From contig DXEF01000053.1 of assembly GCA_019115085.1 (NCBI GenBank), positions 1 to 48,553 of the forward strand: DNA of 48,553 nt, in the 5' to 3' direction. Positions 1,884-5,023 of this stretch are shown here, piece after piece (within the stretch, counting starts at the first letter, position 1; every line of letters starts with the position of its first letter). This DNA comes from Candidatus Agathobaculum pullicola. Lineage in GTDB: Bacteria; Bacillota; Clostridia; Oscillospirales; Butyricicoccaceae. A program made the translations under genes and the position numbers. The notes below the pieces were generated by a model. That model was not told the DNA's origin. It did not search any database and was given only the letters and a program-made list of their open reading frames with translations.

Positions 1884-2165
1884 TTACTTGCCGTTATTGG
1901 AGGTCTTGCTGCCCGCGTGACCCTTGTAGGTACGGGTGGGAGCAAACTCGCCCAGCTTGTGACCAACCATGTCCTCGGTGACATACACCGGAACATGCTT
2001 GCGGCCGTCGTGCACCGCGAAGGTATGACCGACGAACTCCGGGAAGATCGTGGAAGCGCGGGACCAGGTCTTGAGAACCTTCTTCTCGCCCTTTTCGTTC
2101 ATTTCAACGACTCTTTTGATAAGCTCAGGAGCCACAAAAGGGCCCTTCTTGACACTTCTGCCCAT
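1884..2165 (-). CDS. rpsS: 30S ribosomal protein S19
   Basis: A 93-residue S19 starting [20 protein letters not shown], with the conserved [20 protein letters not shown] block (about residues 36-55) and the [17 protein letters not shown] block near the end. S19 sits in the 30S head beside S13 and contacts the A-site finger of the large subunit. AAAGGAG lies ten bases before the ATG. It is placed normally between rplB and rplV with spacers of about 18 bp. Length and sequence are typical. Confidence 0.98.
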
Positions 2166-2183
2166 AATCGTTTAACTCCTTTC

Positions 2184-3017
2184 TTACTTGCCGTTGCGAC
2201 GACGCACGATCTGCTTATCCGTGCGGTGATTCTTCTTACGGGTCTTGTAACCCATCGCCGGCTTGCCCCACGGGGTAACCGGGCTGGGACGACCGATCGG
2301 GCTCTTGCCTTCGCCGCCGCCGTGCGGGTGATCGCACGGGTTCATAACAGAACCGCGGACGGTCGGGCGGATACCCATGTGACGGGTACGGCCGGCCTTA
2401 CCGATCTGGACGTTGGAGTGGTCGGAGTTGCCGACAACGCCGATGGTTGCCTTGCACTCCAGACGCACGTAACGCAGTTCGCCGGAGGGCAGACGAACCA
2501 TCGCCTTGCCGTTCTCCTTTGCCATCAGCTGTGCGCCGACGCCTGCGGAACGAACCAGCTGCGCGCCCTTGCCGGGGTACAGCTCAATGTTGTGAATCAT
2601 GGTACCAACCGGGATGTTCTCAACCGGCAGGCAGTTGCCCGGCTTGATGTCGGCATCCTTGGAGGATACGACCTTGTCGCCGATCTTGAGGCCTTCCGGC
2701 GCGAGGATATAAGCCTTGACGCCGTCCTCATACTGAACCAGCGCGATGTTCGCGGAGCGGTTCGGGTCGTACTCGAGCGTCAGCACGGTTGCCGGCATAT
2801 CCAGCTTCTGGCGCTTGAAGTCGATGATACGGTACTTTTTCTTGTTGCCGCCGCCAATGTGACGAACGGTGATGCGGCCGTAGCTGTTGCGGCCGGCGGT
2901 CTTCTTGACCTTTTCGAGAAGGCTCTTCTCGGGCTTCACCTTGGACAGACCCTTGTAGGAAAGCACAGTCATATTTCTGCGCGAGGGCGTCGTCGGGTTG
3001 AAAGTCTTGATAGCCAT
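2184..3017 (-). CDS. rplB: 50S ribosomal protein L2
   Basis: Reads [20 protein letters not shown], a typical L2 start, so I place the start at the ATG at 3017 rather than the in-frame TTG 12 bases upstream, which abuts the AAGGAG site. About 277 residues, as expected. The peptidyl-transferase-proximal GDKV and [20 protein letters not shown] blocks (toward the C-terminus) and [14 protein letters not shown] are intact; the His in this last block lies near the catalytic centre. L2 is needed for subunit association. It is separated from rplW by about 250 bp holding a hairpin array, whereas its other neighbours are closely packed. Confidence 0.97.
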
Positions 3018-3072
3018 TTGGATTTTCAACTCCTTAGAATCTGTTTCTTATCGGGGTGACATCCCCATACAT

Positions 3073-3263
3073 ACGCGAACCGGGTTCGCGTCATTTCATC
3101 GCCCCGCAGGAGTATTGTTTTGAGCGGGCTTTGCCCGTTCAAAACTCCACTGCTTCGGGACACGTGTCCCGAACCGCGTTTGCGTGCAAACGCGAGGGGG
3201 TTATCCGCAAAAGTTTCCATCAGGAACTTTTGCGGTATCTAAGGGGGACTGGTCCCCCTTAGA
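3073..3263. repeat. Array of six consecutive, different hairpins between rplW and rplB
   Basis: The whole rplW-rplB gap is filled by six side-by-side inverted repeats: 3073-3091 (8-bp arms, 3-nt loop); 3117-3145 (13-bp arms with one mismatch, loop ttt, and flanks 3106-3113/3144-3153 that can extend it); 3154-3173 (20-nt perfect palindrome, ttcgggacacgtgtcccgaa); 3175-3194 (9-bp arms, loop gt); 3205-3235 (11-bp arms plus an inner 2 bp past a bulge); 3238-3263 (12-bp arms, loop tg). The stems differ from one another in sequence, so these are not copies of one unit. The array ends five bases after the rplW stop and about 45 bases before the rplB site. No U-tract follows a stem, so terminators are unlikely. 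Confidence 0.9.
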
Positions 3264-3268
3264 AGATG

Positions 3269-3562
3269 TTACATCATGTTCTCAAAAAGCTCGATGCCCT
3301 TGGAGTCCGGGGTCAGGGTAACAATCGCCTTCTTGATGTCGGGGCGCTTGCCAACGTGGACGCCCATGCGCTTCCACTTGCCCGGCAGCTTGATGGTGTT
3401 GACCTTCTGCACCTTTACGCCGAAGATCTCTTCCACAGCCTTCTTGATCTCGATTTTGCCGGCGTCAGCGGCAACTTCAAAGGTGTACTTGTTGTTCTGG
3501 GAACCCATCATGGAACGCTCGGTGATGACCGGCTTCTTGATAATATCGTAAGCGAACTTCAT
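3269..3562 (-). CDS. rplW: 50S ribosomal protein L23
   Basis: A 97-residue L23 starting [20 protein letters not shown]; the KKPVITERS block is the family hallmark. The middle carries [20 protein letters not shown] and [20 protein letters not shown], and the loop with [20 protein letters not shown] follows. L23 lies at the exit tunnel and is the main docking site for trigger factor and SRP. The ATG overlaps the rplD stop (TAATG) and has GGAGG ten bases upstream. It is followed by the hairpin array rather than directly by rplB. Confidence 0.98.
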
Positions 3563-4185
3563 TATGCGTACACCTCCTGCAGCTTCTCAACCGCCGCCTT
3601 GTCGATGATGAACTTGTCGGCGTTGAGGACTTCGTAAACATTGAGGGTAGACGCGATCGTCGTGCGCACGCCCGGGATGTTGGCGGCGGACTTGACGACG
3701 TTCGTGCGAACCTCGGGAGTAACAACCAGGCTCTTGCCGGTAGCTTCCACAGACTTGAGGAAGCCGACAAAGGTCTTGGTCTTGATTTCGCTCATATCCA
3801 GACCGTCGATGACGATGATCTCGCCGGCAGCCGCCTTCGCGCTCAGCGCGGACAGCATCGCCAGACGGCGGGTCTTCTTGGTCAGGGAGTAATTGTAAGA
3901 ACGGGGCTTCGGGCCGAGGGCAATACCGCCGTGGGTCCACTGCGGAGAACGAATCGAACCCTGACGGGCGCGGCCGGTGCCCTTCTGGCGCCACGGCTTG
4001 ATGCCGCCGCCACGGACCTCAGCGCGGGTCAGCGTGGACTGGGTGCCCTGACGCTGATTTGCCAGATAGTTCTTTACTGCGGCGTGAACCACAGCCATGT
4101 TGGGCTCGATGCCGAAAACGGCCTCGTTCAGCTCCATCTCGCCGGTCTTCTTACCGGTCATATCAAAAACTGCTACTGTAGGCAT
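3562..4185 (-). CDS. rplD: 50S ribosomal protein L4
   Basis: A 207-residue L4 starting [20 protein letters not shown]. The tunnel loop includes [20 protein letters not shown] (about residues 59-78) and the [19 protein letters not shown] block. L4 lines the exit tunnel. In E. coli it also represses its own operon by binding the S10 leader; whether it does so here is unknown, but the long leader upstream of rpsJ makes the question relevant. A strong GGAGGAG site precedes the ATG. The stop overlaps the rplW start. Confidence 0.98.
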
Positions 4186-4203
4186 GAGTTGCTCCTCCTT
4201 CCC

Positions 4204-4902
4204 TTACTTTCTCGCGGAAGCCTTCTGCGGGTTCTTGCTGACGCCAGCCTCGCCCTTGGCAACCTTGTTATTCTTAACGGTGTTCTTCAGCACCACGATG
4301 CCGCCCTTCGGGCCCGGAACCGCGCCGCAAACAGCGATGAGGTTGAGCTCCGGATCCACCTTGACAACGTCGAGGTTCTGAACCGTAACCTGCTCAGCGC
4401 CCATATGGCCCGGCATCATTTTGCCCTTCATGATCTTGGAGGGGTCAGAGCACGCGCCCATGGAGCCCTGATGACGGTGCATCGGGCCGGCGCCGTGGCT
4501 CATCGGGGAACGGCCCGCGTTGAAGCGCTTGATAACGCCCGCGTAGCCCTTACCCTTGGAGGTGCCGGTCACGTCGACATAGTCGCCTGCGACGAACATG
4601 TCGGCCTTGACCACATCGCCAAGCTGGAAGGTGGAGCAGTCCGCAAAGCGGAACTCCTTGAGGTACTTCTTAAGGGAGTCGCCAGCCTTTTTCAGGTGGC
4701 CCTTCTCCGGCTTGTTGAGCTTGCGCTCCTTGATGTCCTCAAAACCGAACTGAACCGCATTGTAGCCGTCCTTTTCCTCGGTCTTGAGCTGGGTGACAAC
4801 GCAAGGGCCTGCCTCGATAACGGTGCAGGGGATCACCTTGCCGTCAGCGTTGAAGATCTGGGTCATGCCGACCTTCTTGCCGATGATTGCTTTCTGCAGC
4901 AT
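4204..4902 (-). CDS. rplC: 50S ribosomal protein L3
   Basis: A 232-residue L3 starting [20 protein letters not shown], with the [23 protein letters not shown] block (about residues 137-159) and the [20 protein letters not shown] block typical of the family. The globular part lies on the subunit surface and the extended loop reaches the peptidyl transferase centre. It is about 20 residues longer than many L3 proteins; the extra part is a lysine-rich C-terminal tail ([14 protein letters not shown]). AAGGAGG precedes the ATG. About 124 bp with small hairpins separates it from rpsJ. Confidence 0.98.
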
Positions 4903-4929
4903 AGTGTTTTTCCTCCTTAAAGGTTATTG

Positions 4930-5023
4930 GTTGACGGCATTTGGCCGCCAACATGACCTCGCCGCGCGTGTCGCGGCAGGGCTTCAAGCAGCCGGTTGTG
5001 TTAGTCCGTCTGCCTGTTGACAG
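4930..5023 (-). repeat. Hairpins in the rpsJ-rplC intercistronic gap
   Basis: Three dyads lie between rpsJ and rplC: 4930-4952 (9-bp arms), 4961-4977 (6-bp gccgcg/cgcggc arms, 5-nt loop), and 5014-5023 (ctgt/acag). In the first, the single imperfect position is A-C on the plus strand but G-U in the minus-strand mRNA, so it pairs fully only as RNA of the transcribed strand. None is followed by a U-run, so they are not simple terminators. They may be processing or stability elements. Confidence 0.6.

Follow-up and report, generated by a model that had tools for sequence, protein, structure and literature searches.

A hairpin array between rplW and rplB

The window, a 48,553-nucleotide stretch of Candidatus Agathobaculum pullicola (genome G000), carries rplW and rplB of the S10 operon on its minus strand. 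Six different hairpins lie between these two genes at 3073-3263, all of which were confirmed in the window sequence. The features of the junction are listed below, with type names (A, B, C) and helix names that were coined in this analysis; percentages refer to 59 dispersed type A copies of the element.

2184..3017, minus strand: rplB (L2), the downstream gene, with its ATG at 3017-3015 as read from the sequence
3048..3072, minus strand: conserved rplB leader motif TATGGGGATGTCACCCCGATAA, candidate L2 leader
3073..3091, minus strand: resident hairpin with 9-bp arms before the rplB leader motif, outside the element; an equivalent hairpin is present in element-free relatives
3102..3263, minus strand (operon sense, 3263->3102): the element, a type A copy of 162 nt, supported by homologues at the same junction and by a match of 172.6 bits to covariance model R1 (see below), whose training set also includes this copy
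3102..3112, minus strand: 3' arms of possible closing helices P3/P6, with partners at 3145-3153 and about 3196-3199, weakly supported
3117..3145, minus strand: P7, an interrupted hairpin of 7+5 bp, 94.6% paired
3154..3173, minus strand: P5, a hairpin formed by a 20-base perfect palindrome that tends to vary blockwise among copies
3175..3194, minus strand: P4, a hairpin with 9-bp arms, 97.3% paired
3205..3235, minus strand: P2, a hairpin with 11-bp arms, a variable outer stem and a conserved inner GTTCC...GAAAC, 98.9% paired
3238..3263, minus strand: P1, the hairpin at the 5' end of the element, with 12-bp arms, 96.9% paired
3269..3562, minus strand: rplW (L23), the upstream gene

The sequence-only reading had described six hairpins packed side by side, and their number is far beyond chance, as five perfect hairpins with arms of at least 8 bp and loops of at most 10 were present in 204 bp, whereas 2000 dinucleotide shuffles averaged 0.035 and never exceeded 2. 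The entire 48.5-kb window has 20 hairpins of this kind, these five included. RNA folding of the array gave -115.9 kcal/mol (z -10.0) on the plus strand and, for a slightly different stretch, -111.4 kcal/mol (z -8.2) on the minus strand. The other junctions of the operon were likewise as first described, short except for rpsJ-rplC, since by ORF coordinates they overlap or are 13-18 nt apart while rpsJ and rplC are separated by 124 nt. The hairpins had been judged not to be terminators, in agreement with our finding no intrinsic terminator (a GC stem followed by a T-run) in 2950-3350. An Rfam scan of window positions 2000-5000 at E<=5 gave no match, and a scan of 20 loci at the gathering score gave four matches, none of them to the hairpin element. 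Arrays homologous to that of the window occupy the same junction in the isolates A. massiliense, A. desmolans ATCC 43058 and A. butyriciproducens as well as in MAGs, which makes an assembly artefact, a concern raised with the original description, unlikely.

Five of the six hairpins form the element at 3102-3263, with P1 starting 5 nt past the rplW stop codon (3269-3271). A multi-branched closure of the element through P3 and P6 is possible in the modelled rplW-rplB copies and is weakly supported in dispersed copies, where helices 3, 6 and 7 are 78-86% paired in the same 59 copies. The sixth hairpin, at 3073-3091, had been counted as part of the array, and we take it instead as resident because element-free relatives keep a hairpin and TATGGGGAT..ACCCCGATAA in its place. 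In element-free G018 (loci L009/L094), G005 (L010/L095) and G019 (L090), a small hairpin of other sequence lies at this position and is followed by TATGGGGAT..ACCCCGATAA. The rplB leader motif is common to Agathobaculum, Butyricicoccus, Gemmiger, Ruthenibacterium and Fournierella loci, and a hairpin with TATGGGGAT..ACCCCGATAA was observed directly 5' of rplB in several Oscillospirales genera (window 3048-3091, minus strand; L054, L060, L064, L077, L082). This combination of hairpin and motif is a candidate L2 leader; the L2 leader given in Table 1 of PMC7247131 is alphaproteobacterial. Like the S10-Clostridia leader and the alphaproteobacterial L2 leader, the element is a structured sequence within the S10 operon, but unlike ribosomal protein leaders it is missing from sister species, occurs at many non-ribosomal junctions and has no Rfam match.

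A dispersed family of copies

Spacers between rplW and rplB were taken from 80 loci of named genomes and 30 loci of relatives, with many genomes represented twice; in this survey L034 was without rplW, and the weak-match loci L004-L008 contained neither rplW nor rplB. The covariance model R1, with 161 positions and 62 pairs, was built from eight rplW-rplB copies, two of which were truncated. BLAST of the window's own genome had produced only weak matches of 14-24 nt elsewhere, and the weak match that was read, L004, held no copy of the element. The idea that the element is unique to the S10 operon was abandoned when R1, the kind of structure-aware search of own and related genomes that the first description had called for, found dispersed copies.

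At E<=0.1, R1 matched all 25 genomes of the Agathobaculum-type genus with 2-29 matches each, a count that includes antisense overlaps and may miss divergent copies. The 11 matches in the window's own genome comprise eight separate clear places, two other-strand overlaps of the window copy and one match of 19 bits. The seven clear copies other than that of the window are of type B, which is shorter and has a different middle domain, and they are located at pheS-pheT, SRP RNA-dnaX, nusG-rplK, 5' of rpsM, 3' of serC, before a sodium-pump decarboxylase subunit, and beside genes without a family match. Wider searches, run with stricter filters under which weak matches are lost, gave R1 matches in 32 of 87 genomes of the family at E<=0.01, in 24 of 394 genomes sampled evenly across the order at E<=1e-4 (12 of these in the genus), and, in a class-wide sample of 391 genomes that serves as a false-positive control, only in the window's own genome at E<=1e-4. 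In another family of the order, copies are present in groES-groEL (L312 and L323, in two genera) and in atpG-atpD (L313), and further sites of these repeats include infB-rbfA and frr.

A second hairpin-array element, type C, was observed between duplicated terminator hairpins in G003 (L236, L240, L244), and modules similar to it, in reverse, were recognised by eye beside type A in the right half of the rplW-rplB spacer of L092 and L096.

Position and orientation

Gene context was determined with a simple codon-usage gene finder for 101 copies, and 11 copies of the G010 subfamily were set apart, leaving 90. An upstream gene was called for 87 of these, and it was co-oriented with the element in 79 and opposite in 8. 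Among the 79 co-oriented copies, P1 starts within 7 nt of the stop codon in 60 and within 15 nt in 70. Where both flanking genes were called (84 copies), 83 copies lie between co-directional genes, one between convergent genes and none between divergent genes. Grouping of the 87 copies by site gave 36 clusters, the largest of which are rplW-rplB (13 copies) and infB-rbfA (11 copies; infB was recognised by eye and rbfA by family match). The median distance to the stop codon is at most 15 nt in 28 of the 34 clusters with co-oriented copies, and an inverted copy is present in five clusters. Four copies have stop-codon distances above 300 nt: L151 starts 22 nt behind an SRP RNA gene, L143 and L213 have the same upstream flank as L151, and L155 lies 3' of a terminator-like hairpin.

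Short operon spacers alone may force part of this adjacency to stop codons, since an insertion has to leave the ribosome-binding site of the next gene intact. The bias in orientation (79 vs 8) is harder to explain in this way and, together with the repeated occurrence of copies at particular operon junctions, could be a sign of function.

Turnover between sister species

Among the 18 genomes of the genus in which rplW was found, the element is present at rplW-rplB in 12 (in altered form in G012 and G021), inverted in one (G008) and absent from five, a count that includes G016 with its probably misbinned S10 contig. This contig (L108, G016:C215) barely differs from its counterpart in G044, a genome of another genus. 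The sister of the window genome, G018, is element-free and 95.7% identical to it over rplD-rplW-rplB. In a tree of rplD+rplW+rplB, the filled site of G000 is paired with the empty site of G018, followed by the empty sites of G019 and G005 and then by the filled sites of G023 and G015. The presence or absence between relatives that had been suggested as a check is thus found between sisters, although not as a clean event, in that the empty site differs from the filled site by more than a clean insertion. For type A, neither a target-site duplication nor a precise 3' end was established.

Copies also differ between genomes at other sites. Sorting by eye of the region 3' of frr in the 18 of 25 loci that could be parsed (all but G001, G002, G004, G009, G010, G020 and G024) gave type A in four (G003, G015, G022, G023), type B in one (G008), other arrays in five, none in seven and one mis-parsed locus (G005). 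At infB-rbfA, four inverted copies belong to one close lineage (0.93-0.98 identity) and seven forward copies are diverse (0.58-0.96). Across sites, mean identity was 0.740 among same-site copies compared to 0.730 among different copies within one genome, and vertical inheritance at each site was not supported as the sole process, as same-site copies are hardly more alike than others in one genome.

Conservation of shape and change of sequence

In the 59 dispersed type A copies, standard pairs were present in 95.0% of 3545 cells, compared to 76.4% in shuffled and 40-51% in slid controls, although the first value leans upward because the alignment was fitted to the R1 structure. Changes on both sides of a pair were found in 618 cells and in 48 of the 62 pairs, and such two-sided changes occur at 9 of the 11 pairs of P2 and at all 12 pairs of P7. 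Stems decaying without compensation, which had been named as the pattern that would speak against a functional element, were therefore not seen, as 95% of pairs are kept. The unpaired bases TAC/GATA and the P2 loop CC..GA are conserved, and P1 is the stem whose sequence varies least among copies.

Ordinarily, strong covariation of stems is taken to prove that an RNA is functional. Among the single deviations in P1, P2, P4, P5 and P7 of the 59 copies, however, 48 were GU+UG and 43 AC+CA, while a control of seven tRNAs from the same loci gave 10 GU and 0 AC. The GU:AC counts by stem were 3:11 for P1, 4:3 for P2, 5:6 for P4, 13:0 for P5 and 23:23 for P7, with four recurrent columns supplying about half of the five-stem totals of both kinds. 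In P1 and P2 of 105 copies parsed from 113, gapless and hence partly out of register, the counts were 64 GU and 107 AC. The five-stem count leaves out P3/P6 and the outermost P4 pair, which is U-G in 56 of 59 copies; with these included, all 62 modelled pairs gave 167 GU and 58 AC, and the G-U result is dependent on the choice of helices. Because GU does not exceed AC in the five main stems, the 95% pairing alone is no proof of RNA function.

Comparison of the sisters G010 and G024 at orthologous loci revealed exact hairpin inversions in four hairpins. An inverted P4 loop accounts for three of the four differences in 161 nt between their rplW-rplB copies, and in two other copies P1, a 5' hairpin and a neighbouring terminator are inverted. 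In the pair L220/L233 from these genomes, the host terminator hairpin beside the element has its loop inverted, with AAAC in one and GTTT in the other. Differences in P5 between same-site copies were bimodal, with 0-1 of the 8 pairs differing in 48 comparisons, 6-7 in 47 and 2-5 in 19. When same-site hairpins that differ but are equally long were compared, 32 of 415 comparisons were nearer to the reverse complement (0 of 50 for P2), and several of the closest of these involve one copy, L123; inversion as the main source of change was not supported, since only these 32 comparisons fit it.

Replication template switching is reported to generate hairpins and also to mend them (PMC8794818). The missing five-stem G-U excess, the exact inversions between G010 and G024 and the bimodal changes in P5 argue for a DNA-level cause of the covariation, and suggest that the stems are DNA palindromes renewed by template switching, although the weaker helices are rich in G-U pairs. 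The multi-base compensatory changes in single events and the stem mending that Monttinen and Loytynoja 2022 describe in PMC8794818 are shared with the element, but the hairpins treated there lie in RNA genes, whereas those of the element are part of a repeat dispersed among intergenic sites.

Comparison with known mobile elements

REP palindromes have a conserved core sequence. BIMEs have been proposed as non-autonomous transposable elements (PMC2817692), and the element resembles REP/BIME in consisting of dispersed extragenic palindromes in composite arrays. In contrast to REP/BIME, which exceed about 100 copies per genome, share a palindrome sequence and have a cognate RAYT/Y1 transposase flanked by palindromes, the element gives 2-29 R1 matches per genome (divergent copies may be missed), each of its hairpins has its own stem sequence, which varies among copies, and such a transposase was not consistently found with it. 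Y1_Tnp scored above the cut-off in only 4 of the 25 genus genomes and not in G000, and the surroundings of 12 of the 19 Y1 loci held only one weak R1 match (20.2 bits, L328), on which grounds a Y1 transposase was rejected as the general partner. Shared palindrome, copy number and Y1 partner having each been looked for and not found, the element is not classed as REP.

A different resemblance was found in the G010 subfamily, which consists of 12 near-identical copies with ends up to 225 nt apart and imperfect terminal inverted repeats AGCGTGTCGACAAAG / AGACTGTAGACAAAG. By eye, 8 of the 12 copies have the element between two copies of a host terminator hairpin, while the second copy is missing from L210, L220 and L223, and the 5' hairpin from L222. 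The different hairpin element of G003 likewise lies between two terminator-hairpin copies (L236, L240, L244). IS1182 elements in G007 have the ends GGCGCTGTTGACAAAGTC and GGGGCTGTCGCAC, similar to those of the G010 subfamily. IS1182 transposase matches, mostly fragments, were found in 15 of the 25 genus genomes and above the cut-off in one, with no match in G010 itself. The likeness to the IS1182 family and its MITEs (IS1272/TnSha1), in terminator-hairpin targets and similar terminal repeats, is seen in the G010 and G003 elements. The window copy differs in that no IS1182-like ends were found in 3018-3271 with up to three mismatches, and in that it has no duplicated hairpin and no terminator target, and thus does not show insertion at a hairpin. 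An IS1182-type MITE was therefore ruled out for the window copy by its missing ends, and kept for the G010 and G003 elements.

Interpretation

We favor, at somewhat better than even, the reading that the array represents a noncoding palindrome cassette of modular build, which occurs in dispersed copies and behaves as a REP/BIME-like non-autonomous mobile element at junctions within operons, immediately 3' of the upstream stop codon. The cassette is dispersed, lies at stop codons with a biased orientation, turns over between sister species and keeps its shape while its sequence changes; its function and its mobiliser we infer. A host or transposon enzyme would copy the cassette into new junctions, and the hairpins would be kept perfect mainly at the DNA level through template switching and hairpin exchange, as suggested by main stems without an overall G-U excess and by some hairpin centers that flip between sisters. 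Once transcribed, the hairpin chain would leave hardly any single-stranded untranslated RNA in the wake of the terminating ribosome, and would neither terminate transcription nor open a Rho or RNase entry site. The cassette may be tolerated in essential operons because of these properties, namely a gap-free fold from the stop codon, no termination and no entry for Rho or RNase. Among the suggestions of the sequence-only reading, the mobile noncoding cassette fits best, given the dispersed copies, the presence or absence between sisters and the occurrence of both orientations at the same junction, while the genome-wide spread of the family and the resident nature of the sixth hairpin had been missed. 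Its remark that no named element has this form also stands, as there was no match in Rfam 15 and none was found in a literature search of partial coverage; within that coverage, the hairpin repeat family itself stands as undescribed. It is a more tentative proposal, and one we think will probably not hold, that the cassette stands for a novel class of operon element, mobile and anchored at stop codons, with a heritable identity that would lie in the chain of palindromes and not in the sequence. Template switching at replication would exchange and invert whole hairpins, the cassette would move into further junctions of essential operons, and the gap-free fold would serve as an anti-polarity spacer that allows it to persist there.

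The main rival, which we consider clearly less likely than the favored reading, is a cis-acting mRNA element between cistrons that is under selection where it stands, with a hairpin 3' of the stop codon and further stems that set stability, processing or the ratio of the flanking cistrons in highly expressed operons. Such an element would account for the co-orientation of 79 of 87 copies, their adjacency to stop codons and their recurrence at rplW-rplB (13), infB-rbfA (11), groES-groEL and atpG-atpD, and it draws further support from the conserved unpaired TAC/GATA, the P2 loop CC..GA and the G-U excess in P5 and the weaker helices. It is harder to reconcile with absence from close sisters, inverted copies at five site clusters, the lack of a G-U excess in P1, P2, P4, P5 and P7 taken together, and a similarity among same-site copies that hardly exceeds that among others. 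As a general account, an IS1182-type MITE directed at terminator hairpins is improbable, and it explains one subfamily at most. The terminal repeats of the G010 subfamily, its 8 of 12 copies between terminator-hairpin copies, the similar G003 element and the G007 IS1182 ends all point to it, as does the insertion of IS1272, a member of the IS1182 family, into terminator hairpins; yet part of the IS1272 target is deleted and not duplicated (PMC4923244), unlike the G010 pattern. G010 is itself without an IS1182 match, the window copy has neither such ends nor a duplicated hairpin, and most copies adjoin stop codons. Finally, a spacer that gathers unrelated hairpins by local duplication and template switching, with no element involved, would produce template-switch signatures and rapid divergence of same-site copies, but it is very improbable, being largely refuted by dispersed copies with the same ordered modules at 36 site clusters, and no other genome in the 391-genome class sample matches at E<=1e-4.

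Within the best conserved operon of bacteria, noncoding inserts are here seen to turn over in the time that separates sister species. The family also constitutes a natural data set in which covariation coexists with flips, block changes and the lack of a main-stem G-U excess, and in which the part played by template switching in creating covariation is directly testable.

Two tandem arrangements were observed in relatives. In L317 and L318 (G141, from another family), shortened P1-P2-like units, e.g. GTCTAGGGGGTACCCGTACCCCCTAGATACGCGGC..., are repeated in tandem 3' of the element, and the rplW-rplB spacer of L029/L110, from another genus of the family, contains about four tandem copies of the GC-rich unit CGCAGGCCGCCTCCCCGGCGAGGGGCGCTGGC.
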